Source of the DNA: a virus | Strand: one strand, 5' to 3' | Virus record (IMG/VR): IMGVR_UViG_3300041809_000453 | Coordinates: 1 to 20,285 of that record | Length of the DNA: 20,285 nt | Shown: positions 1,865 through 20,285 of the stretch, piece after piece | Position numbering within the stretch: the first letter of the stretch is position 1 | Layout: the number at the start of each line of letters is the position of its first letter | Program-made: the position numbers and the translations under genes | Notes under the pieces: model-generated | Told to the model about the DNA's origin: nothing | Seen by the model: the letters and a program-made list of their open reading frames with translations, nothing else | The model's database searches: none

Positions 1865-1872
1865 AAATTACC

Positions 1873-3053: not shown

Positions 3054-3472
3054 GGCAAAGTCGCATTAACTGTTTGATTCTTTATTGATGATTTAGCCGT
3101 ATTTAATGTGGTTAAATTAGAATTTTCCGACGTTACTTCTTCATTATTCAATATTCCCTGTTGTTGAAGGTCTGCTATCGCTAATGCTCTTATGTCTTGC
3201 TGTATCAACGTTTCTTGCTGTTGCTGTGCTATAACATTAGGGTCAACCCAAAGAGGATAAGCGCTTAAAGCCGCAAAGTTAGCAACCTCGGTATAAGTTT
3301 CACCCGCTGGAATGCAGACCGTAGAGCCAGGATTATATTGAGGCTGTAAAATAATATGTCCGTTGCTATCAGTTATGTATCCAAAACCAGTAACCACTTT
3401 GACATTGTTGCAGTTTTGGGCAAATACCAAAGTCGGACAAATTAGTAATAAAATAGTAATTAAGAATTTCAT
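3050..3472 (-). CDS. Secreted small protein with Sec signal peptide (140 aa)
   Basis: A textbook Shine-Dalgarno (AAGGAGG, four bases before ATG) fixes the start. The N-terminus MKFLITILLLICPTLVFA followed by Q is a typical Sec signal peptide with a VFA-type signal peptidase I site, so export of a mature chain of about 122 aa is predicted. The mature part begins with a beta-like region containing two Cys (NCNN and STVCIP, about residues 21 and 53), possibly a periplasmic disulfide. It continues as a Gln-rich helix (90-115) and an Asn/Thr-rich tail. No family is recognised. It lies between the tail-fibre-like gene and the GNAT-like internal protein, inside the tail module, so it may be a virion or lysis/entry accessory that passes through the envelope. 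Confidence 0.8.
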   Translation of the reverse strand: MKFLITILLLICPTLVFAQNCNNVKVVTGFGYITDSNGHIILQPQYNPGSTVCIPAGETYTEVANFAALSAYPLWVDPNVIAQQQQETLIQQDIRALAIADLQQQGILNNEEVTSENSNLTTLNTAKSSIKNQTVNATLP

Positions 3473-3481
3473 AAAGCCTCC

Positions 3482-4207
3482 TTAGCTTCCTAATGGTATA
3501 AAGTACATTGCCGTAATAGCGGTCCCATCAAAGCATTTATAATAATCATTTTTCTTTACTACAGAACTGCAACCACCAAAATAAGTACCATTCGTTGATA
3601 CGTTTTCACATCTTATAGTTGTTGGATTTGTATTAGAGTCTGTGATAGATTCTACTAAATCTCCACTCACGGTAGCAGTTCCTAAGCAGTAAAATACTCC
3701 ATCTGTTGAAGCTTGAAACGGGCCCCATGTTGCGCCAGTACCAGATTTTGTTTGCCAAGAACCTAATATTGCGGAAACATTAGAATTCCCAAAAACAGGA
3801 AAAACCCAATTTTGATTTCCGTTTAAAAAAGTTGTGGAGTTTGCCGTCCCTGTTCCTAAATTAGCAGTAGGAACTTCTCCCGCGCTTGAATTAATATTAC
3901 CTAATTGAATTAGTGAAGAACCATAAACATCTCCGTAAGTATAAATACCGTTAACAGAGTCAATTTTTGAATTAGTTACTGCGCCATTAGCGATAGCGGA
4001 AGTTGTTACCCCTGCCGTTGCTATGTTTGTTGACCCATCAATGTTATTATTATTCGCCCATTGAGCGATTGCCTGCATATCGGCGTTCCAGTCGCCTGAT
4101 TTAATCGTTCCGCCCGGTTGTTCGTTCTGGTAAGGAATATTTAAGGCAGTGGCTCCCGCAAGGGAGGCCCATCCTGCCAATATTAACGTAAGAATAAATT
4201 TTTTCAT
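3482..4207 (-). CDS. Putative tail-fibre/receptor-binding protein with signal peptide (241 aa)
   Basis: I start this gene at 4207, where the ATG overlaps the nozzle stop (TAATG) after a GGGGG ribosome site; a longer in-frame start at 4318 would read through nozzle coding sequence. The N-terminus MKKFILTLILAGWASLAGA is a Sec signal peptide with an AGA cleavage site. Residues 30-75 (GDWNADMQAIAQWANNNNID, then STNI and ANGAVTNSKID) resemble the N-terminal repeats of phage tail fibres. The C-terminal 90 residues (Gly/Thr/Ser-rich beta pattern, with DGVFYCLGTATVSGD and a final KNDYYKCF...FIPLGS) resemble distal fibre domains. Four Cys lie in the C-terminal part. Position after the nozzle fits a fibre. 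A signal peptide on a fibre is unusual, because virion proteins normally assemble in the cytoplasm. Confidence 0.75.
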   Translation of the reverse strand: MKKFILTLILAGWASLAGATALNIPYQNEQPGGTIKSGDWNADMQAIAQWANNNNIDGSTNIATAGVTTSAIANGAVTNSKIDSVNGIYTYGDVYGSSLIQLGNINSSAGEVPTANLGTGTANSTTFLNGNQNWVFPVFGNSNVSAILGSWQTKSGTGATWGPFQASTDGVFYCLGTATVSGDLVESITDSNTNPTTIRCENVSTNGTYFGGCSSVVKKNDYYKCFDGTAITAMYFIPLGS

Positions 4208-5766
4208 TATCCCAACCCCCTTGTAATCTGTAACGGTCGTTCCATGAATAAAATCTTTAAAATATTGACCGGAACATCTGAATTTGAACCATGAAAATTT
4301 ACTGATACTGACTTGCAAAGCTGGTTAATAGCCAATGACGCTTCAACAAAGCTTCCCGTAACTATCGGAAAAGTTGAGGTATCCCAAACTCCCGTCCCAT
4401 CAAACGTCGGCCCCGTTAATGTCCCTTGTGAAATAACCTGATTTAATAAAACAGCTATCGGGTTCTGGTCTAAAAGGATATCCGCATACATTGTGTAATT
4501 GCCCTGACTCGCAATATAGGCAAATAAAGAATCAAGTTTTTTCCGGTATTGCAAGCCCTCAAATGCCTGCCAGGGTATCTGAAAGTTCCAATTTATAGCA
4601 GAGCCGTCATCGTTATAGCCCTGATCGTGCCAGTAAGCATATCCGTTATAATTTCCAGAATATAGACGTTCTTGACCATTAACTGTACGCCTACAACAGC
4701 AGTTTCCTTGAAGCGTTCCGGGTCCCCACCATGACCTTGTTTTAACGTGATAATCAATGTGCATATTGTTTATGTTTGAGTACGGAGCGGAAAAGAAATA
4801 CCTAACTATATCAAGGTTAGGATAGTAAGCCCCACAAACGAACTGTAGGCGGGCGGGATTTACCATATTTCTAAAGAAATTTTTCATCCGGGGATTTTTT
4901 GTTTTAGGATGATCAGTTGCCGAAACTATCTGATTTCCCAAAAGCATATAAATATCGTTAGTGTCCCACCACATAAGGTTTCCGCCCGGAAGATAAACAA
5001 TAGACGCTTGCGAGCAACACCCTGCCCCATCGGCAAAGAGATATTTATAAAACGGCGGAGTAGTGCCGGAGTTTTCCACCATCGAGATTGATTTGTTCTT
5101 AAATACAATGAGCGTTTCAAACATTCCCCGGGCAATACCAGTAACAGCGCCACCGGCCCCTTCATCAAAATTGATGTAGTTGAGTCCTGTAAGTGCGTCC
5201 GTTGTTCCTGTGTAATCCTGACCGTTGCTTAAAGCAGAGAAAAAAACAACTGTAGGGCTTGCGTTATTCCCACCTGCCCACATACGCTCCCCCCAAGAAC
5301 AAAGAATTGTCCCGCCGCCCGTGGGAGGGTTAGAAATTAGTGCCCCGTTTCCAGTGCGGGGCCAATACCACATCCCGTCAAGCGAAGTGTCCGCTCCGTA
5401 AGCCGTTCCGTTTAAAGCGTCCATTGAAACGATGTTGTTCTGGCTGTTCGTTAATGTCAAAGAGCCGGTAATGTCGCTCCAAGTCCCGTCGGGTGAGTTG
5501 TTATAAATTTTTGAACCATTTGCCGCTAAAAAATACTCCGCGCCAAACCATGTATAAGACAACATTCCAGTAAAGGCGGAAGATAGCTGTACTGTGTTGT
5601 GTTTTATAATTCCCTGTCTTTGGGAAATTCCGCCCACGTTTAAAGATGGTAAGACGTTTGAACCCGCGATAATACATTCTTGGGGGACATCAAAGGGAGT
5701 GGAATCGAAGTCAACGCCTCCGACTAAGTCGTTTAATGGGACTACTGAAACATTGCGTTTTGCCAT
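4207..5766 (-). CDS. Putative tail nozzle / tail tubular protein B-like (519 aa)
   Basis: The ATG at 5766 abuts the preceding stop (TAAATG). The protein opens with MAKRNVSVVPLNDLVGGVDFD and LPSLNVGGISQRQGI, the pattern of podovirus nozzle/stopper proteins in which the N-terminus lists values and then Arg-containing QRQGI. It continues as a long beta-rich body with repeated Trp/Tyr-Gly blades (FLAANGSKIYN, YGADTSLDGMWYWPRTGNG, CSWGERMWAGG, MWWDTNDIYML) suggesting a beta-propeller. Length is intermediate for the family (T7 gp12 is about 790 aa). It would close the portal-adaptor channel and carry fibres. It lies downstream of the adaptor-like gene and upstream of the fibre-like gene, as expected. 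Family assignment comes from pattern and gene order. Confidence 0.75.
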   Translation of the reverse strand: MAKRNVSVVPLNDLVGGVDFDSTPFDVPQECIIAGSNVLPSLNVGGISQRQGIIKHNTVQLSSAFTGMLSYTWFGAEYFLAANGSKIYNNSPDGTWSDITGSLTLTNSQNNIVSMDALNGTAYGADTSLDGMWYWPRTGNGALISNPPTGGGTILCSWGERMWAGGNNASPTVVFFSALSNGQDYTGTTDALTGLNYINFDEGAGGAVTGIARGMFETLIVFKNKSISMVENSGTTPPFYKYLFADGAGCCSQASIVYLPGGNLMWWDTNDIYMLLGNQIVSATDHPKTKNPRMKNFFRNMVNPARLQFVCGAYYPNLDIVRYFFSAPYSNINNMHIDYHVKTRSWWGPGTLQGNCCCRRTVNGQERLYSGNYNGYAYWHDQGYNDDGSAINWNFQIPWQAFEGLQYRKKLDSLFAYIASQGNYTMYADILLDQNPIAVLLNQVISQGTLTGPTFDGTGVWDTSTFPIVTGSFVEASLAINQLCKSVSVNFHGSNSDVPVNILKILFMERPLQITRGLG

Positions 5767-5994
5767 TTATGACACCATAACCCATCCCGTAGTTGCTACT
5801 TTGGTCGCAACGTAAACCTGATGATTAGTAATATCTACATACTGCTGTCCAATTTGCGTCGGTAAAACCTTCGGCGCACCGCTTCCCGTTATCGTGGGGA
5901 TAATCTTCGTGTAAATGTCCTTCAAGTACGAAGCTAAACGAGCTTGGCCTTGTGGTGTATGTAAATCTTGAAGTTGAATTGGAGCCCTAATCAT
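5767..5994 (-). CDS. Small tail-region protein (75 aa)
   Basis: Starts MIRAPIQLQDLHTPQGQ, overlapping the last 8 nt of the O-antigen-ligase-type gene, and stops just before the nozzle ATG. The first half is helical (residues 12-35). The second half carries IGQQYVDITNHQVYVATKV and a terminal GWVMVS, a short beta pattern of the kind found on phage fibre or virion proteins, where a Gly-Gln-x-Tyr-x-Asp hairpin precedes a Tyr-Val-Ala strand. No function is known to me. Tight spacing with the nozzle suggests a tail-assembly role. Confidence 0.65.
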   Translation of the reverse strand: MIRAPIQLQDLHTPQGQARLASYLKDIYTKIIPTITGSGAPKVLPTQIGQQYVDITNHQVYVATKVATTGWVMVS

Positions 5995-7126
5995 GGCTTA
6001 AATCCCATTTTTTATCTGCGTTATAAAACTCGACCTGAAACATTCCATACAAAACAATAAATATCCAAAGGCAATCTGGAAAATGAAACGGGCTGTGGAA
6101 ACATGAAACCGAAAAAAACAAAATGAATGAGAATAAATAAGGCGCTTCGTAATAAACATTCTTGATTTTTTTCTTTAACTGCCATGCCCAAACCCCCAAA
6201 ATAGCTAATAACGAAATTCCGCCCTCGAAAAACGCTTGCAAGGGCTCGTTATGCAATTCAAGCCAGCTATTGGCGGGATATTGAGGGAAGATGCTATTAG
6301 CCATTGACGAATAACCCCCAATCCCAAACCCATCTAAAGCCCTTTCCCAAGTCAACTTAAATATAGGAATCCAAAATTGTAATCTTAATGAGAATTTATG
6401 ATGAAGATGATCCATCGCACAATGTCTTAACGGCGTTACAAATAAAAAAGATGAAATAAAAAAAACCAAAACAAACCATATCCACCATTCTTTCCTGAAA
6501 AACCAAAGAACACATAGACCTAACCCAAGCCACACCGAATATTCATTGCTTGCCACCAATCCCGCAAAGAGCGGAAGACACAAAATTTTTTTCCAGCCCC
6601 ACGCAAAAAATAGTGCAACAACAGACAGCAAAGCAAAATGAGCTGGATACACCATGAAACCAGTAGGCAAATGACCAGTGTCCTGAACTTGAAATGGTGC
6701 ATTAATGCCAATTCTTTCGAGAAAATAAGACCCGCAATTAAGAAGGGCATAAATCACCAAACCTTTCTTTAATTTTTCAACCATATCTAGGCTTATTCCA
6801 TTTTCAATTAAATAAATCCCCGTAATTGAAAAAAATACAATCATTATGGCCAACTTCGTATTCCCGCCGGTTCCGTGGGTAAATAAATTAACCATGCAAT
6901 AAGTCAAGAACAAAGCCGGACACCAATCATTTATTTTTCTAACCTGTCCAAAAACAAAATACGCGCCAACCAAAAAAGTAATGAACAGTTCAAAACATTC
7001 ATACTTCATCTGTACAGTTTCATGGTTAGGCCAATAAAATCCGCTGACAAAAAAAAGAGAAAACATTATTAGCCAATCAAAAATTTTATGCCGGTTTATA
7101 CCCGCGCTCTCCGTACTGTCTTCCAT
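5987..7126 (-). CDS. O-antigen ligase/polymerase-type (Wzy_C-like) polytopic membrane protein (379 aa)
   Basis: About ten hydrophobic segments cover most of the length. The diagnostic part is near residues 248-306: an Arg in SLRLQFW, then GFGIGGY, then LHNEPLQAFFEGGI followed by another membrane helix. This matches the Arg, Gly-rich motif and periplasmic-loop His of O-antigen ligases (WaaL), O-antigen polymerases (Wzy) and PglL/PilO protein O-oligosaccharyltransferases; His292 would be the catalytic-loop His. Such enzymes transfer undecaprenyl-linked glycans in the periplasm. The ATG at 7126 follows a GGGGG tract; alternatives are TTG 7153, ATG 7144 and ATG 7066 (after the upstream stop). The gene overlaps both neighbours and is embedded between adaptor- and nozzle-like genes, so it is an integral part of the late operon. 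Which of the three activities it has cannot be told from sequence. Confidence 0.75.
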   Translation of the reverse strand: MEDSTESAGINRHKIFDWLIMFSLFFVSGFYWPNHETVQMKYECFELFITFLVGAYFVFGQVRKINDWCPALFLTYCMVNLFTHGTGGNTKLAIMIVFFSITGIYLIENGISLDMVEKLKKGLVIYALLNCGSYFLERIGINAPFQVQDTGHLPTGFMVYPAHFALLSVVALFFAWGWKKILCLPLFAGLVASNEYSVWLGLGLCVLWFFRKEWWIWFVLVFFISSFLFVTPLRHCAMDHLHHKFSLRLQFWIPIFKLTWERALDGFGIGGYSSMANSIFPQYPANSWLELHNEPLQAFFEGGISLLAILGVWAWQLKKKIKNVYYEAPYLFSFILFFSVSCFHSPFHFPDCLWIFIVLYGMFQVEFYNADKKWDLSHD

Positions 7127-7826
7127 AAACCCCCAAAGGATCATCTGGTTCAAGTTGACCGTCTTTTGACGCCTGCTTAATAATCCACGCTTCTATTTCC
7201 TTCATGTCGTTGTCATAATCAGCCTTGTAAACAGCCATTAAATCAGTATCCGCTTGAATCTTCGCTGTTTCATAAATACCGCCATTGTATAAAACATTCT
7301 GCAAGCTATAAGGAATTGCGGGAACGTCCGTGTCATTGACTAGTTTTACAAGCTGTTGCCAATAACTATAATAAAGTTTTCCTCCCGATTGAGAAACCCA
7401 TGCTGTGCTAGGTCCTTCCCATATCTGCATGATGTTATTTCCTGAATTATTTGGAAGTAAAACTCTGTAAACTAATGGCTGGCCCTGAGTATTGGAATCA
7501 GTATTTAGTAACCACTCCTGATCGTCCGTTATTTGATCTAACATCCAATTTTCAGAAGACTCGTCAATCCACCAAACATTCTCAATCCTGTCAACATCAT
7601 TGGCTATGGTAATTTGCTGAACACCCGCGCCAACGAGAGGCGTTACAAAAACATCATTATTGCTTCCAACTAGTTTTTGTGGGAATTTAAAACGACGGGA
7701 CAAAGCAAGAATAACAGTATTTATTCCTAGCTTTGAGTTTGCTATGCCATTTGATGAGACGTCTTGACAAACCGTCGCTACGTTATTGTAGGTAATGCTG
7801 AATTGATCTGGTGCGTTGGCCCCCAT
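7086..7826 (-). CDS. Putative head-tail adaptor (tail tubular A-like) protein (246 aa)
   Basis: The ATG at 7826 follows GAGG five bases upstream, better than the in-frame GTG at 7832. The sequence has a helical N-terminal part (ITYNNVATVCQD, INTVILALSRRF), a beta middle with conserved-looking Trp residues (VENVWWIDE-type region, residues 80-145) and a helical C-terminus (IPYSLQNVLYNGGIYETAKI, then a long acidic helix with YDNDMKEIEAWI). This helix-beta-helix plan and a size near 200-250 aa fit podovirus adaptors that dock under the portal (T7 gp11 type). Gene order, after the capsid and before the nozzle, supports the call. Its last 41 nt overlap the next gene. Confidence 0.65.
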   Translation of the reverse strand: MGANAPDQFSITYNNVATVCQDVSSNGIANSKLGINTVILALSRRFKFPQKLVGSNNDVFVTPLVGAGVQQITIANDVDRIENVWWIDESSENWMLDQITDDQEWLLNTDSNTQGQPLVYRVLLPNNSGNNIMQIWEGPSTAWVSQSGGKLYYSYWQQLVKLVNDTDVPAIPYSLQNVLYNGGIYETAKIQADTDLMAVYKADYDNDMKEIEAWIIKQASKDGQLEPDDPLGVYGRQYGERGYKPA

Positions 7827-7833
7827 AACCACC

Positions 7834-8094
7834 TCACGTTGCGCTCAAACGGTATGCTTGCGTTCCGGAATTACTTTTTAAAAATATCCCTATCAGAGTT
7901 GTGGTAGGCCATGCATACGGTTCGCCAGGATTAAGCCTCATTTTTATATGAACACCGTCATCTGAAACATGAATAACGTCCGTGTTTGCTCTATCGGCAA
8001 TAATATTTATTAATTTCTGAGGCGCAAACCCAAACGGGAACCACGTCCAAGACGTGCCAACTGTGCTGTCTGACAAGTAGGACGGCTGGCCCAT
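7834..8094 (-). CDS. Small beta-rich virion-region protein (86 aa)
   Basis: The ATG at 8094 directly abuts the stop of the coiled-coil gene (TAAATG). The protein is mostly beta-predicted (TSWTWFPFGF, VIHVSDDGVHIKMRL, IGIFLKSNSGTQAYRLSAT), with no signal peptide or Cys. The C-terminal strand pattern resembles small decoration or fibre-like domains of environmental phages. No named family is recognised. Position upstream of the adaptor-like gene suggests a capsid or tail accessory. Confidence 0.65.
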   Translation of the reverse strand: MGQPSYLSDSTVGTSWTWFPFGFAPQKLINIIADRANTDVIHVSDDGVHIKMRLNPGEPYAWPTTTLIGIFLKSNSGTQAYRLSAT

Positions 8095-8544
8095 TTAAAC
8101 CCCTTTGATAACATCTGACAAATCGGATAATTTCCCCTGTAGAGAAAATCCCCATTCTTGAATTTTTTTAAGCAATTCTGTTTTTTTATCTTCTAAGGCG
8201 TTTATTCGATTGTTCAACTCTTGAACATTGTCTTCGTATTTTTTCACATTATTATCATGGTTCTCTTCGTGTATCCTAAGAGCCATGTCCCGGGAATCTA
8301 AAATATCAGTTCTTGCTTTTTTACTAGTTTCAAAATCATCGTTCTTTAACTTGATTGTTGCGTCTAAACCGTCAACGACTGATTGCTTAGACGAGATCTC
8401 ATCAATCAATTCCTGATGTTTTTTGTTTAAATTATCAATGCTTACCTTTAAGGAATCTTCCTGACCGGATAAGGCACGGATAATATTTTGCCTTCTAATT
8501 ACTTCTTTATTAAATTCATCCTGCATCTTATCAAAATCAGACAT
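8095..8544 (-). CDS. Coiled-coil protein (149 aa)
   Basis: AAAGGAGAAGGT precedes the ATG at 8544, a strong ribosome site. Residues 5-135 are a nearly unbroken charged heptad pattern (for example IDNLNKKHQELIDEISS and VQELNNRINALEDKKTELL), so an elongated coiled-coil oligomer is predicted. There are no Cys, signal peptide or membrane segments, unlike the two secreted genes just upstream. Candidates are an assembly chaperone, a tail fibre rod, or a scaffold-like factor. Nothing in the sequence decides among them. Confidence 0.7.
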   Translation of the reverse strand: MSDFDKMQDEFNKEVIRRQNIIRALSGQEDSLKVSIDNLNKKHQELIDEISSKQSVVDGLDATIKLKNDDFETSKKARTDILDSRDMALRIHEENHDNNVKKYEDNVQELNNRINALEDKKTELLKKIQEWGFSLQGKLSDLSDVIKGV

Positions 8545-8554
8545 ACCTTCTCCT

Positions 8555-8935
8555 TTATTGATAATTCAAAAACCCGTAACCATTCGACACTGTAACAACA
8601 ATTCCCGTCGTGGTTGCCAATGCTCCGCCGCCAAAACTGGTACTTTCCGAATTTCCAGAGGTTGCCGCCGCCACTTCATAAATTATATTTGCCTGTGCGG
8701 TTTCATTGGAAGCATTAGTGTCATAAACAGTCAATAAGGCATTGTTCGATGTTGCGTATACGGTCATGCCATAAATTAACCCTGGGCTTGCCTTAACGAG
8801 CATGGCTGTACCAGTTTCAAGATAGGATGAATAGCCATACCCTTTAACTGGTATCCCTGCCCCCGCAAAAGCGGGGGACAGGGACAACCACATCGTTAAG
8901 AGAACCAGTACAATAACTGCCATTCTCTTAAACAT
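8555..8935 (-). CDS. Secreted decoration-like protein, second of a tandem pair (126 aa)
   Basis: AAGGAGAG lies just upstream of the ATG at 8935. The N-terminus (MFKRMAVIVLVLLTMWLSLSP, then AFA) is a Sec signal peptide with a predicted signal peptidase I site after about residue 25. The mature chain is Gly/Ala/Thr-rich beta: SPGLIYGMTVYATSNNALLT, VYDTNAS, then a Ser/Gly linker and a terminal strand (GIVVTVSNGYGFLNYQ). It appears paralogous to the gene immediately upstream (shared G-x-I-x-G-M/V-x-V-x-A ... VYDT/LYDT core and aromatic C-terminal strand). Genes directly after a capsid gene often encode decoration proteins, but the signal peptide argues for export first. Confidence 0.75.
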   Translation of the reverse strand: MFKRMAVIVLVLLTMWLSLSPAFAGAGIPVKGYGYSSYLETGTAMLVKASPGLIYGMTVYATSNNALLTVYDTNASNETAQANIIYEVAAATSGNSESTSFGGGALATTTGIVVTVSNGYGFLNYQ

Positions 8936-8947
8936 ACTCTCTCCTTA

Positions 8948-9388
8948 TTACGGATATTGAATGGTGTACACAATAAACCCACCACCAAGACCAGCTTGGG
9001 CCGCTTCCAATCCTAACGTCGTTCTAATGGGCGTTTGGGAAAGGTCGAAGAACGAAGCTGTATTGGCCGCAACACTAGCCTCAAAAACTGTATTTGTAAT
9101 CCCAGGCTGAGGAACGCCAGCTTCAAAATATGGCGACGTAGCCGTTGCGCTTGTATCATACAGCTCCACCTGATTGGCGGTCCCACCTGCTACAACCATG
9201 ACTCCCGTAATAACAGCAGGAGTTCCGCTTATGGTTTGTATGCCCGTAGCAGTAAAAAAGCCACCGGTTGCTTTTTGATAATTCGTTACGATCTTGCCGT
9301 TGTTATTGACTTCAACATAGGCAAAACTAACCCCTGCCAATCCAATAACAAGCAAGGTTGTTAAAATGAATGATAATAATTTTTTCAT
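8948..9388 (-). CDS. Secreted decoration-like protein, first of a tandem pair (146 aa)
   Basis: I place the start at ATG 9388, which follows GAGGG eight bases upstream; an in-frame GTG at 9403 lies on that ribosome site and is less likely. MKKLLSFILTTLLVIGLAGV followed by SFA is a clear Sec signal peptide, cleaving before YVEVNNN. The mature protein is a Thr/Ala/Gly-rich beta chain (GKIVTNYQKATGGFF, VITGVMVVAGGTANQVELYD, and a C-terminal GGGFIVYTIQYP). It is paralogous to the next gene. It sits immediately downstream of the major capsid gene with a 19-nt gap, so it should be transcribed at late, structural levels. No enzymatic motif is seen. Confidence 0.75.
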   Translation of the reverse strand: MKKLLSFILTTLLVIGLAGVSFAYVEVNNNGKIVTNYQKATGGFFTATGIQTISGTPAVITGVMVVAGGTANQVELYDTSATATSPYFEAGVPQPGITNTVFEASVAANTASFFDLSQTPIRTTLGLEAAQAGLGGGFIVYTIQYP

Positions 9389-9407
9389 TTTATTGTCCCT
9401 CACTTTC

Positions 9408-10664
9408 TTATATTAAGCTGTTCGGGTTAGGTGAATATGTGTTCATTAACACAAAGTTAGGTGTCAATGTACCCGCAGAGTTTTGAATTACGCTCTGTCC
9501 GTAATAAGCCATGATGCCGATGCCTTGCTCATACCCATAATCACGAACATCAGTGATCCTGGTAGGAAGCATGCCCCATGCTCTTGCGGCAATTTCAGCA
9601 CCGAAGAAAATGGCGCGGCCCAGGTTATTGGCTGTAATCAAAGCACCAACGTTATGGGCGGCTCCGGTAGTACCATTCTGAGCACGAGTAATGCTCGTGG
9701 TGCCTAATTGAGTGTTGGAAGTTCCAACATAGGCAATCTGCTCACCGTCAATCAGCAAAGTCCCGCTTGATGGGAAAAACTTTGTATAATTTACATTGGT
9801 GTTGGAACCAACCGAGATCGGAGTTGTGCTTCCAGAGGTTAAAGCAACTGTTAGCCCCGCTTCCGGTCTCAGGTATGAACCATAACGACCGCTGTATTTT
9901 ACAGAGGTATGGGTATAAACATAAACCCCGTTATAGCTCCCTAAACAACCAGTAAAGATTTTGTTATCGTCGCCCCTGAATCCGGCATCTTTCTGGTTTG
10001 TATTCCAAATACTGTCTAGTTTGAGGTTATACTCATCAATTTCTGAGATAACCACCCCGTACCAGTCAATTTCCTGCTTACCATCAACAATGGTACGGAT
10101 AGGCAAAGCACCCTGTCTTTGCAAAGCCGCCTTACCTCTCATAATTTCCTGGACTCCGAAGGTTGTAGCCGGCCCCAACGTAGAAATACTTGTGGCCGCT
10201 CCGGCATACAGCTGAGAACCGACTGCCGAATTCACAATCGAGCTAAATAAATCCTCATCTGTTCTTCGTGCAATCCAGGTTGAAAGCAAATCACCGATAG
10301 CCATGATAATATCGAAGTTGATCTGCTTTTTGGCACGCCAGTTTACTGCAACCGCATTTCTCAAGGTATTAGGCGTAATTGAAATCTGACCAAGAGTAAT
10401 GGTTTCCTCATTTCCTTCCAATGTAGTATCGCCAGTCTGCCCCTCTTGCAGGAGTTGGCTGGTAATCTGAATATTCACGGCACTCCCGGGAGTGTTTGTG
10501 AAATCCATACGCTCGATAATAGGCTGATCGGATCCTTCTTTTCCGACAAACTTTCCCCAAAACGCTTTTCTAGCCGAATCCATGCGTATTTTCGGCTCCC
10601 ATTGCGTAGGGATAGCATTAGCTAGTATCGCTGGCGTCAAATCATTTAAAAATGGGCCCCCCAT
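9408..10664 (-). CDS. Major capsid protein, N4-gp56 type, with inserted domain (418 aa)
   Basis: AAGGA six bases before ATG 10664 supports the start. The protein matches the N4-gp56 / DUF4043 capsid family by its layout: a KFVGKEG...IIERMDF segment, a strand with VNIQITSQLL, the loop EGQTGDTTLEGNEET (about residues 74-88), then NAVAVNWRAKKQINFD and a helix ending in TWIARRTDEDLF, and a C-terminal LGRAIFFGAEIAARAWG. Residues about 264-347 (TLLIDGEQIAYVG, TRAQNGTTGAAHNVGALI) look like an extra beta domain inserted before the last core segment. It follows the scaffold-like gene by 20 nt, as in many podoviruses. Confidence 0.9.
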   Translation of the reverse strand: MGGPFLNDLTPAILANAIPTQWEPKIRMDSARKAFWGKFVGKEGSDQPIIERMDFTNTPGSAVNIQITSQLLQEGQTGDTTLEGNEETITLGQISITPNTLRNAVAVNWRAKKQINFDIIMAIGDLLSTWIARRTDEDLFSSIVNSAVGSQLYAGAATSISTLGPATTFGVQEIMRGKAALQRQGALPIRTIVDGKQEIDWYGVVISEIDEYNLKLDSIWNTNQKDAGFRGDDNKIFTGCLGSYNGVYVYTHTSVKYSGRYGSYLRPEAGLTVALTSGSTTPISVGSNTNVNYTKFFPSSGTLLIDGEQIAYVGTSNTQLGTTSITRAQNGTTGAAHNVGALITANNLGRAIFFGAEIAARAWGMLPTRITDVRDYGYEQGIGIMAYYGQSVIQNSAGTLTPNFVLMNTYSPNPNSLI

Positions 10665-10684
10665 AAACTATCCTTTCTCGTCCG

Positions 10685-11554
10685 CTATTCATTTAATCCG
10701 TTGTCTTCTTGTCGCTTTTTAAAATCAGCTTCCATAGATTCACGGATTTCATCGTCGGACATTTCGTTAATAGGTTTCTCGTCTTCTTTAGTGGCGGCAG
10801 GGGCGCGTCTTCCTTTGCCCTCAACCATCACGTTTTGCTTCTTGTTTTTGACCTCTTCCTTGTTAGCCTTTTCAAGACGTTCTTTCTCTTCGCGGAGTTC
10901 TTCTGCGGCTTCCAAAGTTGCTAACCAGTCGGCGTTAGGAGGAATATAATACGTTTTCCTGTCTTTCGACCATTCTGTGTATTTTTCCCGCACGATTTTG
11001 TCGGCTCTTTTGTAAAGCTCACTGTCCTTTTTATTAAGTTCAGGGAACTTGGACGTGGCTTTTTGAAAATAAGAGTTGCGTTTCGTCCAGTAATCATTCT
11101 TCTGGTACTCTTCAAGAAGGGCTTGGCGCTTGGCTTTGTTGACCACTTTCTGAATCACCCTGAGTTGATTGTCATCAAAATAGAGTTTTTCTTCTTCGGT
11201 TAACTCGTCAGGGTCTTCTTCTTTTTTGGTTTCCTGACGGCTACGCCTTAACTCTTCGTTTTCTTGACGTAAACGTGCTTTTTCCGATTCTAATTCTGCC
11301 GCTTTGTCTGTAACTTCCTTGAAACGCTTACGAGGAACAGGAGGCTCATCGCCTTCTTCATCTTCCTTCACGGATTCTGTTTTATCGTCACCAGCCGACG
11401 TGTCCGTAGCGGTATCTTCTTTGGATGACGAGTCCTTAGTGTCACCGCCAAGCTCTTCGACCTCTTCCGAAGCCGACATTTTTTCGTCAAAGTCTTTCTT
11501 CATTGCTTCTTCTGAAAAATCTTGTTTGGTCTTTTGTTCTTTTCCCATAACCAT
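10685..11554 (-). CDS. Putative scaffolding protein (289 aa)
   Basis: AAGGAG seven bases upstream fixes ATG 11554. The sequence is extremely charged: an acidic Ser/Asp/Glu N-terminal 70 residues, a coiled coil around 80-115 (LESEKARLRQENEELRRSRQ), a helical middle with QLRVIQKVVNKAKRQALLEE and Trp/Tyr-containing turns, a second coiled coil (about 215-245) and a basic/acidic C-terminal tail (DFKKRQEDNGLNE). Position immediately before the capsid gene plus length and helical content are those of scaffold proteins, which guide procapsid assembly and then leave. The gene is preceded by a strong terminator hairpin, so its expression may be set separately from the packaging genes. Confidence 0.8.
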   Translation of the reverse strand: MVMGKEQKTKQDFSEEAMKKDFDEKMSASEEVEELGGDTKDSSSKEDTATDTSAGDDKTESVKEDEEGDEPPVPRKRFKEVTDKAAELESEKARLRQENEELRRSRQETKKEEDPDELTEEEKLYFDDNQLRVIQKVVNKAKRQALLEEYQKNDYWTKRNSYFQKATSKFPELNKKDSELYKRADKIVREKYTEWSKDRKTYYIPPNADWLATLEAAEELREEKERLEKANKEEVKNKKQNVMVEGKGRRAPAATKEDEKPINEMSDDEIRESMEADFKKRQEDNGLNE

Positions 11555-11604
11555 TTGATTCTCCTTGTGAGGTTGTTTTTCGTGGTTACTTGTCCACGCA
11601 CGTT

Positions 11605-11663
11605 AATAAAAAAGCCCTGTGTTCACTACCCATCTCCCAATGAGTAGTTACTTACAGGGCTTT
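11605..11663 (-). terminator. Two-tier rho-independent terminator or structured RNA before the scaffold gene
   Basis: Read on the minus strand, AAAGCCCTGT pairs perfectly with ACAGGGCTTT (10 bp), and a run of six T followed by ATT comes straight after, as in an intrinsic terminator. Inside is a second 9-bp stem (ACTACTCAT with ATGGGTAGT, one G-T pair) closed by a TGGGAG hexaloop. The two stems are separated by a 5 x 4 internal loop (AAGTA / GAAC). It lies between the Com-like gene and the scaffold gene, both read leftward, so it would limit read-through into the capsid genes. Confidence 0.8.
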
Positions 11664-11688
11664 ATAGCCTCTAAAAAACTTCTGCGCT

Positions 11689-11838
11689 CTAAGGCACTAA
11701 GACTATCTTTTTACATTTACCGCATTTCACCTCTATAAATTTCATTCCCGATAAACAGTTTAAAATCTTAAACAAGAGTTTATTGCAACAAGGACACCTT
11801 ATTTCAATTTTTTTATCTGTTTCCAATGATCCTCGCAA
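11689..11838 (-). CDS. Com-like zinc-ribbon protein (45-49 aa)
   Basis: The translated frame holds IEIRCPCCNKLLFK, an 11-residue linker, then IEVKCGKCKKIVLVP. The two CxxC pairs and the IRCxxCNKLLFK block closely match phage Mu Com, the small zinc protein that binds mom mRNA and activates its translation (Mu Com begins with a very similar IRCKNCNKLLFK). Start codons are non-ATG: TTG at 11838 or, with GAGG four bases upstream, TTG at 11826. The frame is open further upstream, so the start is uncertain. No mom-like gene is recognised in the window. The gene sits directly before a large hairpin and then the scaffold gene. Confidence 0.75.
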   Translation of the reverse strand: MRGSLETDKKIEIRCPCCNKLLFKILNCLSGMKFIEVKCGKCKKIVLVP

Positions 11839-11843
11839 AGTAT

Positions 11844-11972
11844 CTATTCTTTCGGATCGTAAATTTCCTCTTGACAGATAACTCTTTTACCGCAAATTTT
11901 ACAACTTAATTCATAAAATCTTAGAAAACCGTTTTTCTCATCAATATAATGTTCTGTATATATCTTAGGCAT
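11844..11972 (-). CDS. Small Cys-containing protein (42 aa)
   Basis: ATG 11972 lies three bases after the staple-like gene's stop. The product starts MPKIYTEHYIDEKNGF and contains CKICGKRVIC near residues 24-33, which looks like one half of a zinc ribbon (a CxxC plus a third Cys). It is followed by a short acidic end. The ribosome site is weak, so translation may depend on coupling. It is five bases before the Com-like frame; the two could be partners or remnants of related ribbons. No family is recognised. Confidence 0.6.
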   Translation of the reverse strand: MPKIYTEHYIDEKNGFLRFYELSCKICGKRVICQEEIYDPKE

Positions 11973-11975
11973 AAT

Positions 11976-12332
11976 TTATTCATATTCCTCTAACTTGTCT
12001 TTGCCCATCCGATTCTCAAAATCTTTTTCCATCACATCGCGCTGATCTTCGTCATCAAGTTTCTTAAATTCTTCTTCAGAAACATCCCCCTGGACTTGAC
12101 CGCTTAATACTTTCAGTCTTGTTTGAAGGCCTCGTTGCTTGTCCTTGCTGACCGACTCGACTTCGCAACGAACAACTAATTCAACTGTACTTCCAACCTT
12201 CGGCGCTTCACCGTCAAACACCTCTTCGGGGACGGAGATTGATGGATAGTAAGGCTCTGGGGCTTTATCCGTCGGGGCCTCAACGCCTAAATTTAAAGGC
12301 TTCTCTGCGAATGATACGAATTTACTCTCCAT
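11976..12332 (-). CDS. Capsid-staple-like protein (118 aa)
   Basis: Residues 27-75 carry PYYPSISVPEEVFDGEAPKV, then GSTVELVVRCEVESVSKDK and LQTRLKVLSG. This resembles the layout of phage capsid-staple proteins (YSD1_16 type): a YP-x-hydrophobic strand, a Pro-x-x-Gly loop, a V-x-SVS strand and a last strand of alternating hydrophobics. Those proteins lock capsomers from the outside. The extended N-terminus (MESKFVSFAEKPLNLGVEAP) also fits the staple strand. The C-terminal 40 residues are acidic helix. The gene lies among portal, scaffold and capsid genes. The identification rests on pattern recall only. Its start overlaps the previous gene by 11 nt. Confidence 0.6.
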   Translation of the reverse strand: MESKFVSFAEKPLNLGVEAPTDKAPEPYYPSISVPEEVFDGEAPKVGSTVELVVRCEVESVSKDKQRGLQTRLKVLSGQVQGDVSEEEFKKLDDEDQRDVMEKDFENRMGKDKLEEYE

Positions 12333-12621
12333 TGTCCTCTCCTCTGTTAGAATATTCTTCTGCTTGGAGCCTCTTAGATTCTAATGCTTCTGCTAAAATT
12401 TCATCTGGTATGCCAAGCGAATGGTCATAGCATCTAATCTCTGTCCGGTAAACTTTGCTTTCACAATCCATTGTCATCAACTTTGCTAAAGATTCACGAC
12501 GATATTCTGCCAATCTACGGGATATTAAAGCCCATCCCTCGCTTGCGAGCAAGTCCTTAATGGGCTTTTCCCATAGGGAACGGTCTTCGGTTTTGTTTTG
12601 TTCAAGCGTTGCTTCGGGCAT
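12322..12621 (-). CDS. Small helical protein of the portal-capsid region (99 aa)
   Basis: ATG 12621 overlaps the previous stop (TAATG). The chain is helical and charged, with LWEKPIKDLLASEGWALISR near the N-terminus, a middle segment containing IRCYDHSLGIPDEILAEALE, and an acidic tail. No motif points to a function. Overlaps at both ends show it belongs to the same translationally coupled block as portal and the staple-like gene. Confidence 0.7.
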   Translation of the reverse strand: MPEATLEQNKTEDRSLWEKPIKDLLASEGWALISRRLAEYRRESLAKLMTMDCESKVYRTEIRCYDHSLGIPDEILAEALESKRLQAEEYSNRGEDNGE

Positions 12622-12821
12622 TACTTAATATCCTCCGGCTTGAATCCCAATTCCTTTACTTCCATAGCGAACAGATACGCCCTTGCCTGTCCTCTGATGG
12701 TAGCCATTTCCATCCCATGGCGGCGTTGGACTAAGGCCATGCGGTCTAAGATTGCCTTCAACTGCAAAGATTTATCAATCACTGGTTCTTTTCCTTGCGA
12801 TTTTGGTTTTGATTCATCCAT
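12621..12821 (-). CDS. Small helical protein after portal (66 aa)
   Basis: I start it at ATG 12821, which has GGAGGGGAG upstream and overlaps the portal stop by 8 nt; a longer in-frame start at 12956 would overlap portal by 140 nt and encode an unnatural basic N-terminus. The product is basic and helical (LQLKAILDRMALVQRRHGME, then an Ala-rich helix ending FKPEDIK). Function unknown; its place suggests a head assembly accessory. Confidence 0.65.
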   Translation of the reverse strand: MDESKPKSQGKEPVIDKSLQLKAILDRMALVQRRHGMEMATIRGQARAYLFAMEVKELGFKPEDIK

Positions 12822-14769
12822 TACTCGACTCCCCTCCGGCCATTGCTGGCTCTGGTTGCTGTTCTTCTTGTCCTTGTTGATATTGCTTTTTAGCTTCTCG
12901 CTGAATCTTTTTAGCTTTGTCCTGTTCTGTGGCAGACATTCTCCTAAACTCATCAACGCTCTTTATTTTGAAAGCTTTAACTTGGCATGAGTTAATAACC
13001 GCCTGTGTTAAGTCATGTACCGCATCAGGGTCTTGCATGACAAATGGATTCTGGGTCTTGGTAAACAACGAATAAAGATTTTCCAACATCTGCTGTTCAA
13101 TCTGCGGACTGACTGTTTGCGTATTGCCTTTAAACTCATACTCAAAGTCCGCGTTAAGTTCGTCCTGGCTCATGTTCATTATTGGGTCAAAGATACTTCT
13201 GGGCTTGCGAAGGCTCTTCTCTTTCATTATTGAATAACGATTCATGCAAAAATGAGAAAACACTTGGTAAGCTAACTCAGGATTAGATTCCTGTTGAATT
13301 AACCGGATGATAACATCAAAACGCATATTTCCTTCTTCGATCATCCTTGTCATTCCGCTTGCGGTTTTTGCTCCCGGCGCTTGGCCTCTGCGTCCTTGCG
13401 CTCCCAAAGAATAATCCGTTATCCCAAATAGCTTTTGAATGATGTCCTGCATCATTTCTTCGCGTAGAATACTTTGTTGTGGGGAAGGACTATTTTCTAG
13501 ACGACGAATGGCATCCGTCGTGATCTTGCGAAGCCCCCAGGTCTTGCCTACTCCTAACTTATGCTCAGTAGGATTAAAACCAGAATTAAGCACATCAAAA
13601 ATAATGGGCATATTGTCATAGAGAGTGTCCCTGTCTATTCCGGTATTTATTTGGGCATCTAGCATTGAACGTATGCCGCGTAACCATTCAGGTATGCCCT
13701 TACCCCAAAACTTACCATCTTGAGGAAAGCAGGTATAATGCACAAATTGACGACGACCTCGCTTGAAAAAGAAACGGTTTGGAACAAAACCCATGAACTC
13801 CTTTTCATCCGGTGCGGACAGGGCAATCAATTCGTGCGCATCACCTTTATCATCTTCATATCTTCCGTGCCATTCCCAAAACTTAAAACGCTTGGTCTTT
13901 GTCTTCTGATCTACGCCTAAAATATGCAACTTGGGGTCTTGCTCCATTGCACGGTCTTTATCTTTGTTTTTCTTAAGAGCGGCAACTCCTTCTTTACTGA
14001 ATATTTCTGGATACTGTTCTGCTTTCTGTGCTACCCACCAATAAGGCTTCCAAAACTCGTGTATAATCCAGTCGATTTGAGACGGGTCAGTGGTATCCGC
14101 ATCTGTGGGGACTATAATATGCTTTGTCGGGCAGTTGATTGCTTTGGGTCCGTAATAAACAACTCTGCTTCTTTTAAAGTCCTTAACTAATTTAGGTTTA
14201 TATTCAACTGATTCCCCACCATCGTTATCAAATATGCTTGGCTGGTCTTCGTCTTCCGCCTCTACCTCTGCCCCCGTTTCTTTTGAAACATACGGATTGC
14301 CTTTCTTGTCGACGAACAGAATAGTATCATCATCAAAGAATATTTCGTCTTTTTCAACCACCGTCTTTACTATCTTATCCCCGTCAATTAAAGTTCCCTG
14401 GTAAATCATCATCAAGGGAATGAACATTTTCATTTCATTCCACAACTGCCAGTTGATATAGTTTTGAAGATGTTCCGCCCATTTAATATCAGAAGGTCTT
14501 ACTCCGATTTCAGGACTTTCGCCCCAAGTTGCGCGAACCAAACGGGCAAGGATAGTATATACAACGGTTGCATCAACCGGAATCCCCACGTTTGAAGCAC
14601 CATAGAACGGCGAGGACTTAACATCTTTGTCAAGGCAGGCTGTAGAGCGTAACGCCTCGAAGCGCTTATTCCATTCGTCAAGATTCTTCATTCTCGATTT
14701 ATTGGCTTCAACGGCTTCTTTGCCGTTTTTAAGAATGAACTCTTTTAAGGTTTTCTTGTCAATCGCCAT
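12814..14769 (-). CDS. Portal protein (651 aa)
   Basis: The 651-aa product is of portal size. It has a helical N-terminus followed by SPFYGASNVGIPVDATVVYT and a helix with RATWGESPEI, an acidic insertion (about 165-195), a crown-side core with FFFKRGRRQFVHYTCFPQDG, then GKGIPEWLRGIRSMLDAQIN with TGIDRDTLYDNM, the long-helix region typical of portals. TASGMTRMIEEGNMRFD and a Gln-rich C-terminal barrel-like tail follow. It would form the dodecameric ring through which TerL packs DNA. It follows the terminase block and precedes scaffold and capsid. GGGGA lies just before the ATG. No truncation or missing segment is evident. Confidence 0.9.
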   Translation of the reverse strand: MAIDKKTLKEFILKNGKEAVEANKSRMKNLDEWNKRFEALRSTACLDKDVKSSPFYGASNVGIPVDATVVYTILARLVRATWGESPEIGVRPSDIKWAEHLQNYINWQLWNEMKMFIPLMMIYQGTLIDGDKIVKTVVEKDEIFFDDDTILFVDKKGNPYVSKETGAEVEAEDEDQPSIFDNDGGESVEYKPKLVKDFKRSRVVYYGPKAINCPTKHIIVPTDADTTDPSQIDWIIHEFWKPYWWVAQKAEQYPEIFSKEGVAALKKNKDKDRAMEQDPKLHILGVDQKTKTKRFKFWEWHGRYEDDKGDAHELIALSAPDEKEFMGFVPNRFFFKRGRRQFVHYTCFPQDGKFWGKGIPEWLRGIRSMLDAQINTGIDRDTLYDNMPIIFDVLNSGFNPTEHKLGVGKTWGLRKITTDAIRRLENSPSPQQSILREEMMQDIIQKLFGITDYSLGAQGRRGQAPGAKTASGMTRMIEEGNMRFDVIIRLIQQESNPELAYQVFSHFCMNRYSIMKEKSLRKPRSIFDPIMNMSQDELNADFEYEFKGNTQTVSPQIEQQMLENLYSLFTKTQNPFVMQDPDAVHDLTQAVINSCQVKAFKIKSVDEFRRMSATEQDKAKKIQREAKKQYQQGQEEQQPEPAMAGGESSNG

Positions 14770-14783
14770 GCGTCCCCACTAAA

Positions 14784-14930
14784 TTATTTTATAACTGCAA
14801 CTGCCCAAAGTTCGTTACACTCTTTACAATAAATAGCCGGAAGATTCTTCTCAGTTAAATGAATGACAGGGAGAACCTTCTTGCAACTTCTGCATCTAAA
14901 AATTTCACCGCTCAAATCATCTTTTTTCAT
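14784..14930 (-). CDS. Zinc-ribbon protein (48 aa)
   Basis: ATG 14930 overlaps the GroES-like stop (ATGA). The product has two CxxC knuckles, FRCRSCKK (near residue 13) and IYCKECNELW (near 35), separated by a short strand-rich stretch (LPVIHLTEKNLPA), so a single small zinc ribbon is predicted. Such tiny phage ribbons bind RNA, DNA or host transcription proteins; no specific partner can be inferred. It is related in design, not obviously in sequence, to the Com-like gene 3 kb downstream. Confidence 0.7.
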   Translation of the reverse strand: MKKDDLSGEIFRCRSCKKVLPVIHLTEKNLPAIYCKECNELWAVAVIK

Positions 14931-15681: not shown

Positions 15682-16095
15682 CTATGAGTTCATCTGCTTG
15701 TCTTTAGAAGTCCCTTCAGCAGAGAATGTTCTTTTCTTAGAGCGTTCATCCGCATTTCGTGAAGACGCCGATTTTGTAAATGAATCTTTGGCTTGTGGGG
15801 CCTTTCCTATCTTTCCGCTTTCTGATGGCCTTGTAGTGTCGCTGTGAAGGTTCTCATCATTCAGGGCTTCCCCAAACTCGCCCTTGATAGCGGTCTTTTC
15901 AGCTTTAAGTCTTTTGCGTGGGGAAGAGGTGAATGGATCGCCACTCACTACTTTATCCCGAATATCATGCCCTTCGTTGCATTTAGGGATTTCGCTTCTA
16001 CTTAACTCCTTCCCAATACGGATAGACATTTGCTGTGATTTTCCGTCATCGGATTTGCTGTTTTGGGTTTCTATTCCATGATAGTTCTTGCCCAT
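15682..16095 (-). CDS. Disordered Ser/Lys-rich protein (137 aa)
   Basis: AAGGAGACATAT precedes the ATG at 16095. The product is Ser-, Lys- and Glu-rich without hydrophobic core (SSPRKRLKAEKTAIKGEFGE near the middle, many short basic patches). The start lies 25 nt inside the end of the upstream membrane-protein gene. No function is recognisable. With the following gene it forms a pair of disordered, basic proteins between TerL and portal. Confidence 0.6.
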   Translation of the reverse strand: MGKNYHGIETQNSKSDDGKSQQMSIRIGKELSRSEIPKCNEGHDIRDKVVSGDPFTSSPRKRLKAEKTAIKGEFGEALNDENLHSDTTRPSESGKIGKAPQAKDSFTKSASSRNADERSKKRTFSAEGTSKDKQMNS

Positions 16096-16739
16096 ATATG
16101 TCTCCTTGTTTTGTTAAAACATCTTTCATAAACTTCTTTCAATAAAATTATTTCCATCGGCACTAAATAAATAAAATACCTGTTTGAATACCCGCTCATC
16201 CTAAATATTCCTGGGCCATACTGTAGTTGGTGAAAGTAAAAAGACAATATAATGATAGGTAAAATAGCCGTTTGCCACTTCCTTGTAACCAAAGAAGCTA
16301 AGACTATAGGCACAACGCAAATCGAATGAGTAAAAGCCATAAGAATATTAACCAGCCACAACCCTTTTGATCGTCCGACAACGCATAACCATTGCCAAGT
16401 CGTTAATAATACCACCAACGCATACGGCCTAGCCTCTGCTATGTGTTGCCACGTGATCTTAACGGAAAGTAAGCCAAACCCCCACCATCCCATCAATGCT
16501 CCCGCCAAAGACATAAACGCAACTGATAAAACCCTGCTTCCGGTCAATCCTAAAGGCTTTTCTATTAAGTACCACAACGGCCCATTACAACCTTCGGGCA
16601 ACTTTCCCATTAAAATATCGCTGTAAGAATACTCGCTCACGTTCTTTGATGTGTACTGCTCATCATGCCAGGGCCTCGAATTCAATAAAACCATCAACCC
16701 TATAAAAATCATCAATATAAAAACCTTCAAAAATTGCAT
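16071..16739 (-). CDS. GT-C-type membrane glycosyltransferase-like protein, short form (222 aa)
   Basis: Hydrophobic segments lie near residues 3-20, 68-92, 105-121, 126-148, 158-170 and 186-203. The first loop holds RPWHDEQYTSKNVSEYS, an Asp-Glu pair right after the first membrane helix, as in PMT/ArnT-type GT-C enzymes (GT39 and relatives). Residues 100-110 read IAEARPYALVV, matching the EARPYAL helix motif common in these proteins. GT-C enzymes move sugars from polyprenyl-phosphate donors on the outer face of the inner membrane. At 222 aa it is less than half the usual length and lacks the C-terminal periplasmic domain, so activity is uncertain. The start overlaps the TerL stop and the end overlaps the next gene, so it is fixed in the phage operon. 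Confidence 0.65.
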   Translation of the reverse strand: MQFLKVFILMIFIGLMVLLNSRPWHDEQYTSKNVSEYSYSDILMGKLPEGCNGPLWYLIEKPLGLTGSRVLSVAFMSLAGALMGWWGFGLLSVKITWQHIAEARPYALVVLLTTWQWLCVVGRSKGLWLVNILMAFTHSICVVPIVLASLVTRKWQTAILPIIILSFYFHQLQYGPGIFRMSGYSNRYFIYLVPMEIILLKEVYERCFNKTRRHIWARTIME

Positions 16740-18369: not shown

Positions 18370-18395
18370 AAAAAAACGGACTTAATGCGTCCGTT
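18370..18395 (-). terminator. Rho-independent terminator
   Basis: Minus strand AACGGAC-GCATTAA-GTCCGTT forms a perfect 7-bp stem with a 7-nt loop, followed by a T-run (TTTTTTTATTT). It lies at the end of the 49-aa ORF, whose stop is in the loop, and upstream of the terminase leader. Late transcription from the promoter near 18600 must pass it, so readthrough or antitermination is implied unless another promoter exists. Confidence 0.8.
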
Positions 18396-18531
18396 GTAAT
18401 TTTTCTTTTTTCGTTATTAAATCAAATCCTGCTTTATCGTAATCTCCGCCCCCAAGTTTATTTTCTTCAAAAAATGAATGACCAGTTTTAAATCTTGATG
18501 TTCCTATATTAACCTGGGGAGCGTGGGCCAT
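18382..18531 (-). CDS. Small hypothetical protein (49 aa)
   Basis: Opens with MAHAPQVNIGTSRFKTGHSF and continues with FEENKLGGGDYDKAGFDLIT and a Lys-rich end. Its composition looks coding-like, and it fills the space between a promoter and a terminator, the stop codon lying within the terminator loop. No ribosome site is obvious. Function unknown; it may instead be a non-coding RNA gene. Confidence 0.45.
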   Translation of the reverse strand: MAHAPQVNIGTSRFKTGHSFFEENKLGGGDYDKAGFDLITKKEKLQRTH

Positions 18532-18575
18532 AAAATAACTTTTCTTTACCAAAGCCGGACTTTAATCTTACGAAT

Positions 18576-18685: not shown

Positions 18686-18713
18686 TTGACAATCAAATTT
18701 TAGCAGGTATACT
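18686..18713 (+). promoter_or_regulatory. Strong sigma70-type promoter for rightward transcription
   Basis: TTGACA (18686-18691), a 16-nt spacer and TATACT (18708-18713, five of six consensus bases) form a near-ideal promoter. Seven bases later comes G18721, a normal start site, which is also the first base of a long-range stem in the leader. An AT-rich upstream stretch could act as an UP element. Confidence 0.85.
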
Positions 18714-18720
18714 TTGAATT

Positions 18721-18887
18721 GTGAGGTTCGATATGAATACTTCAATCTTAAAAAATTTCAACAAACAAAAAAATCAAGACGCCTTTCGTGTGTCTTTTTT
18801 GTTTGCCCCTGGGCGAGCCTCACATCTCTCCGTTCCTCATATTCAGGGAACAACGGGGGCAAACATAATTTTAAAAGGAGGTTTATT
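18721..18887 (+). ncRNA. Structured 5' leader, pseudoknot-capable
   Basis: GTGAGGTTCG (18721-18730) can pair over its full length with CGAGCCTCAC (18814-18823), ten pairs with one G-U. GTTTGCCCC (18801-18809) pairs perfectly with GGGGCAAAC (18856-18864). The two stems interleave, giving a pseudoknot, with a terminator hairpin inside the first loop and a small GTTCC/GGAAC hairpin inside the second. The region ends at an ideal ribosome site (AAGGAGG, 18875-18881) before GTG 18888. It starts at the predicted transcription start. It matches no RNA family I know. Confidence 0.55.
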
Positions 18888-18891
18888 GTGA
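18733..18891 (+). CDS. Possible leader ORF (52 aa)
   Basis: ATG 18733 has GAGG six bases upstream; the frame (MNTSILKNFNKQKNQDAFRV...) runs 52 codons through the terminator hairpin and ends at a TGA overlapping the GTG start of the next gene. Its ribosome site is within the first stem arm. The peptide looks like no protein family and may have only a regulatory role, or the ORF may be incidental to the RNA structure. Confidence 0.3.
   Translation: MNTSILKNFNKQKNQDAFRVSFLFAPGRASHLSVPHIQGTTGANIILKGGLL
18762..18805 (+). terminator. Terminator-like hairpin in the early leader
   Basis: AAGACGC-CTTTCGT-GTGTCTT forms a 7-bp stem (one G-U) followed by TTTTGTTTG, and the flanks CAAACAAAAAA and TTTTTTGTTTG are perfect complements that can extend it. 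It lies about 40 nt after the start site and before the first certain gene, so it looks like an attenuator. Its symmetrical A/T flanks could work in both directions. Confidence 0.65.
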
Positions 18892-19121
18892 GAAACCCTC
18901 TAAACTCAAACGATGTAAACGGGAACACAATGGCTTGGATGGCTGATAAAGACCGCGAAAATACGGCAAGCCATGAGGACACCTACACCTGCCCCTGTGG
19001 GAATGTCGTACCGGAAGAAGAATGGATCGCAGAATTGCAGATATGTATGGAGTGCGCTGAAATCCAGTTTGGAATCTATGACAGTATTGATAAGGTTCTA
19101 AATCAGAGGGAGGACAGATAA
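18888..19121 (+). CDS. Zinc-ribbon small protein, first gene of the rightward operon (77 aa)
   Basis: GTG 18888 follows AAGGAGG by six bases, a stronger start than any upstream one in the same frame. The N-terminal third is Asn/Asp-rich (NPLNSNDVNGNTMAWMADKD). Residues about 38-65 carry TCPCGNVVPEEEW and ICMECAE, a CxC/CxxC zinc-binding knuckle pair. The C-terminal part is an acidic helix. Early phage genes of this type often bind host polymerase or nucleic acid; here that is only a possibility. Confidence 0.75.
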   Translation: MRNPLNSNDVNGNTMAWMADKDRENTASHEDTYTCPCGNVVPEEEWIAELQICMECAEIQFGIYDSIDKVLNQREDR

Positions 19122-20233: not shown

Positions 20234-20285
20234 ATGGAAAATAGGCATACATATATAGGCGGTACGGATGCGGCCGCGATCTTGG
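20234..20285 (+). CDS. YqaJ-like viral recombination exonuclease, N-terminus only
   Basis: GGAGG five bases before the ATG. Only 17 codons are visible: MENRHTYIGGTDAAAIL. The YIGGTDAAAIL stretch matches the start of YqaJ-type recombinase/exonuclease proteins, which begin with an IGGSDAA-x-ILG motif; the family resects double-stranded DNA ends for recombination. The gene runs off the right edge, so its catalytic residues cannot be checked. Confidence 0.65.
   Translation, partial: MENRHTYIGGTDAAAIL

Follow-up and report, generated by a model that had tools for sequence, protein, structure and literature searches.

The question raised by this locus is what a highly structured stretch of RNA does at the start of a phage transcript, and whether it is a riboswitch-like leader or attenuator, as the original prediction proposed. 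The window analyzed here is the whole of the IMG/VR virus record IMGVR_UViG_3300041809_000453 (20,285 nt). Its leftward genes encode the terminase large subunit (TerL), an SU10-like portal and a Phage_capsid_3 capsid protein, and small rightward genes start 3' of the leader region. Placed amid the virion structural genes is a gene for a 388-aa membrane protein (5987-7153, minus strand) with an O-antigen ligase match (Wzy_C, E 3e-8, above the Pfam cutoff), for which surface modification of the host is a possible role. A 222-aa multi-spanning membrane protein (16071-16739, minus strand) adjoins TerL; it has no clear family and gives us the impression, nothing firmer, of part of a membrane glycosyltransferase. 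The leftward transcript has a strong terminator at 18375-18395 (hairpin scored at 18377-18393; d score +18.6 by a d'Aubenton Carafa-type formula), and a possible leftward ORF of 56 aa (18382-18552) lies upstream of it. At the right end of the window, a truncated ORF (20235-20285, plus strand) begins MENRHTYIGGTDAAAIL; we take this start to resemble YqaJ-type phage recombinases, which suggests that the rightward genes are early or recombination genes.

The leader fold sits exactly from the promoter to the ribosome-binding site of the next gene, and the region contains the following features:

18686-18713, plus strand: sigma70-type promoter TTGACA-N16-TATACT, 11 of 12 consensus matches, start predicted
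18721-18730, plus strand: 5' arm of stem 1 (GTGAGGTTCG), at the predicted +1 and holding the Shine-Dalgarno sequence (SD1) GTGAGG, 18721-18726
18733-18891, plus strand: overlooked 52-aa ORF (MNTSILKNFNKQKNQDAFRVSFLFAPGRASHLSVPHIQGTTGANIILKGGLL), SD 6 nt upstream, codon score +0.063
18762-18772 and 18795-18805, plus strand: A-tract and U-tract extension of the terminator-like hairpin (CAAACAAAAAA / TTTTTTGTTTG)
18776-18796, plus strand: weak terminator-like hairpin, then a U-tract, d score -6.5 to -13.9
18795-18801, plus strand: U UUU UUG heptamer in frame with the 52-aa ORF, candidate -1 frameshift site
18800-18811 (core 18801-18809), plus strand: 5' arm of stem 2
18814-18823, plus strand: 3' arm of stem 1, the anti-SD (CGAGCCTCAC)
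18832-18850, plus strand: inner hairpin between the 3' arms of stem 1 and stem 2
18854-18865 (core 18856-18864), plus strand: 3' arm of stem 2
18876-18881, plus strand: SD2 (AGGAGG) of the next gene, duplex with anti-SD -12.3 kcal/mol
18888-19121, plus strand: next gene, 77 aa, CxC...CxxC zinc-ribbon-like, without relatives or any match in database searches

Judged from the promoter sequence, G18721 is a plausible transcription start: it is the eighth base past TATACT, with seven bases (18714-18720) intervening. All of the pairings listed in the original prediction are present where it placed them. Stem 1 (18721-18730/18814-18823) has 10 pairs, one of them G-U, and stem 2 has a core of 9 Watson-Crick pairs that can be extended to 12 with one G-U (18800-18811/18854-18865). 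The two stems cross, as claimed; the terminator-like hairpin and its extension are there too, as is the ribosome site AGGAGG, 6 nt 5' of GTG 18888. Within the 3' arm of stem 1, the segment 18815-18821 can also pair weakly with SD2.

These pairings exceed what is expected by chance. When the 167-nt leader was dinucleotide-shuffled, 4.5% of the shuffles had a stem of at least 10 pairs (at most one G-U, span >60 nt) and 6.9% a perfect stem of at least 9 bp, so that the earlier estimate of a few percent each was about right; energy-based P values were 0.023 for stem 1 and 0.0015 for extended stem 2. The summed stacking of the crossing pair (-43.1 kcal/mol) was reached in 0/2000 dinucleotide shuffles. 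It was also matched in none of 1584 same-length windows of the genome (overlapping, both strands; next best -37.8), so that the leader, which was picked for looking unusual, is still an outlier as the best window of the whole genome. By shuffles and genome windows alike the leader contains two crossing helices beyond chance, and its minimum free energy (MFE) z-score is -3.35.

Folding of the leader gives a mixed answer as to which structure forms. The MFE (best nested) fold (-44.8 kcal/mol) has stem 2, lacks stem 1 and is itself not pseudoknotted, and the best nested fold with stem 1, which includes the extended terminator hairpin, reaches -42.2 kcal/mol. The pseudoknot is roughly estimated at -44.6 to -39.6 kcal/mol for penalties of 7 to 12 kcal/mol, near-isoenergetic with the nested folds, and a pseudoknotted form is possible in this model. 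Because the energies are equal within error, computation cannot decide between a pseudoknot and a two-state switch. Stepwise folding of the exposed RNA suggests an order of events. At first SD1 is largely engaged in a weak local hairpin; stem 1 reaches a pair probability of 1.00 once 18823 is exposed and, together with the extended hairpin, dominates first; stem 2 competes after 18864 and the following bases are exposed, and as it completes the pair probability of stem 1 falls to 0.19-0.44. In the nested ensemble, pairing of the anti-SD with SD2 is negligible and SD2 is partly hidden by a local hairpin with 18893-18901.

A non-coding pseudoknot leader, riboswitch-like or bound by a trans factor, could act on translation from SD2, in which case the 52-aa ORF would be fortuitous. 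The leader structure is the most extreme of the genome at that size, the modeled pseudoknot is sterically plausible (4-nt link, loops of ~70 nt and 32 nt) as well as close in energy to its competitors, and a formed stem 2 leaves the anti-SD (18815-18821) able to pair with SD2. We nevertheless regard this explanation as unlikely: the near absence of anti-SD/SD2 pairing in the nested ensemble and the local hairpin over SD2 speak against it, codon statistics together with SD1 and its ATG point to translation, and no Rfam family fits the leader as the riboswitch-like label would have it (no match at gathering threshold, best permissive matches E>5).

No homologous leader was found among viral contigs, phages, plasmids and 100 fetched loci, and phage and plasmid DNA searches returned no match; DNA patterns built on stem 2 or on the junction of stems 1 and 2 matched unrelated sequences, and these matches were set aside as chance. 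Protein-based searches of viral contigs with the first rightward gene, TerL, capsid, portal and a hydrolase-like protein recovered only contig 3300014161_000095; it matches window 1-14803 (14.8 kb) at 99.99% identity and stops at that point, without the leader. In an alignment search with the capsid (80 viral and 4 genome loci), none except this contig was more than ~33% identical, and leader similarity was seen in 0 of these loci. That there is a single leader sequence, with neither homologue nor covariation, counts against the reading favored below.

One point at which the original prediction gives way is its treatment of the leader as untranslated RNA. A 52-codon frame from ATG 18733, which it missed, spans the whole leader, and its Shine-Dalgarno sequence, GTGAGG, 6 nt 5' of this ATG, lies in the 5' arm of stem 1. 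The window has two copies of GTGAGG-N6-ATG against 0.08 expected, the second copy starting the 453-aa gene at 503-1864. The codon score of the 52-aa ORF (+0.063) falls in the range of this phage's genes, with an in-frame mean of 0.028 against an out-of-frame mean of -0.161 (likelihood ratio ~14); only 0.2% of out-of-frame windows and 1.2% of those on the reverse strand score as high. In 1.0% of shuffles there was a start that had a 4-nt SD within 60 nt and a frame open to the end. Openness alone is weak coding evidence, since the frame of the next gene is likewise open across the leader; frame 0 was open in 13% of shuffles. An ATG with an SD, followed by 52 codons whose end shares 4 nt with the next gene, argues against an untranslated RNA, and as far as sequence can tell the leader is probably translated as a 52-aa cistron. 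The peptide has no relatives and no family match in our searches; weak phage peptide matches (E 0.2-0.3) were taken as chance.

The stop TGA of the 52-aa ORF overlaps the GTG start of the next gene in the 4-nt sequence GTGA (18888-18891), and because of this overlap the 77-aa gene is probably translationally coupled to the 52-aa ORF. At sequence level the locus has the makings of a coupled pair, namely a stop/start overlap and an upstream ORF with SD and coding signal. In another study, coupling was strict for 13 of the 14 overlapping stop/start pairs tested (PMC6728339; ATGA and TGATG overlaps). The leader resembles these termination-reinitiation pairs in its 4-nt overlap and strong intragenic SD, and differs from them in having GTGA instead of ATGA and an unusually strong fold over the first cistron. 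Counting against coupling, SD2 is strong enough for independent initiation. A start of the next gene further upstream in its frame, at TTG 18714, was rejected because it lacks an SD and the codon score is ambiguous.

Could this be an ordinary small gene followed by an overlapping gene, with a fold that has no regulatory role? The coding statistics are compatible with such an arrangement, odd folds occur somewhere in any genome, and this leader was chosen for looking odd. We consider it rather unlikely, on account of the genome-window comparison, the placement of the fold exactly between promoter and ribosome-binding site, and synonymous recoding: equally strong crossing stems appeared in 1/600 codon permutations and 0/600 synonymous samples (1/1200 recodings), and the peptide therefore does not account for the fold.

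The reading that we favor, tentatively and at somewhat less than even confidence, is that the 5' part of the mRNA is structured, possibly bistable, and conceals the SD of a small first cistron to which the next gene is coupled. This part would open a rightward operon of the phage, probably an early one, whose transcript begins at about G18721, with the 52-aa ORF as first cistron and the 5' arm of stem 1 as its SD. The first ten bases of the transcript would pair long-range with 18814-18823, hiding SD1 and the 5' end, and the first cistron would be translated when this helix opens. Stem 2 would form later, either replacing stem 1 or crossing it as a pseudoknot. The second gene would probably be translated via GTGA coupling, its SD2 perhaps partly hidden by the hairpin with 18893-18901. 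The likely effect would be on the timing and efficiency of translation of the first, and hence the second, cistron, and possibly on the stability of the 5' end. No ligand, protein or antisense partner of the leader is known, and SD1 is already mostly paired locally ahead of stem 1; both count against this reading. Long-distance SD/anti-SD pairing is found in type I toxin mRNAs such as hok and Helicobacter pylori aapA (PMC6733600). Like these, the leader has a small-ORF SD that can pair with a distant downstream anti-SD, and transient folds that would give way to final ones sequentially during transcription; unlike them, it shows no antisense RNA in a general promoter scan, its peptide is no obvious membrane toxin, its ORF is overlapped by the next gene, and there is no homology.

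A more elaborate bistable RNA is quite unlikely in our estimate. In such an RNA, a single anti-SD in the loop of the long hairpin would form alternative pseudoknots with SD1 (strong) or SD2 (weak), toggling the two overlapping genes while also encoding the peptide. Translational attenuators of the ermC type consist of SD1, a leader ORF, a complementary segment and SD2, and the complement pairs with either SD. The leader has the identical order of elements, and its complement is likewise able to pair with either SD; unlike in the ermC type, its ORF spans SD2 and ends in an overlap with the following start codon, coupling would replace stalling, and the SD1 pairing is far stronger than the SD2 pairing.

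The original prediction also saw a transcriptional attenuator, with the pseudoknot as antiterminator. Its description of a strongly non-random, pseudoknot-capable leader stands; the attenuator logic is not supported, given the strand order, and the hairpin scores weakly. The U-tract (18795-18800) is made before 18801-18809 and 18814-18823, and stem 1 forms only once 18823 is exposed; the U-tract precedes both pseudoknot strands, and therefore the pseudoknot cannot be the antiterminator. With a d score of about -6.5 (cutoff 0; same formula), versus +18.6 for the leftward terminator, the hairpin 18776-18796 falls under the cutoff, even as the top-scoring terminator-like site on the plus strand of the window. 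That it stops early transcription, with leader pairing or ribosomes translating the 52-aa ORF as the modulator, has a low probability in our view. A ribosome on this ORF would cover the hairpin, and a weak attenuator opposed by translating ribosomes is possible. Control of translation appears to fit better than a terminator switch.

Two further explanations are highly improbable. A programmed -1 frameshift at U UUU UUG, stimulated by stem 2 or the pseudoknot, would join the 23 N-terminal residues of the leader ORF to the reading frame used by the next gene. In its favor, the heptamer lies in phase and the -1 frame continues without a stop into the gene at 18888; against it, stem 2 begins at the heptamer with no spacer, further in-phase heptamers lie within the same AT-rich ORF, and across the leader the -1 frame has an ambiguous codon score (-0.066). 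In-phase slippery-type heptamers number 5 in the 52 codons of the leader ORF versus 0.008 per codon in other genes, ~12x denser, probably because of its A/T runs. An antiterminator RNA that serves the early operon in cis, in the manner of put, would share with HK022 putL the position just 3' of the promoter and the character of a structured RNA opening an early phage transcript (PMC9378689), but put RNA, which acts in cis antitermination, is ~70 nt with two adjacent stem-loops, whereas the leader RNA, at ~145 nt, has crossing pairs over long distances and a weak terminator within it, lacks an Rfam match and shows no sequence relation to put.

If the favored reading of a structured first cistron with a hidden SD is true, a single stretch of 170 bases would act at once as promoter-proximal leader, as coding sequence and as regulatory fold, which would make the locus a compact switch in a phage mRNA. 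For leaders that look like riboswitches, small overlapping genes and the order in which strands are transcribed should be checked first.
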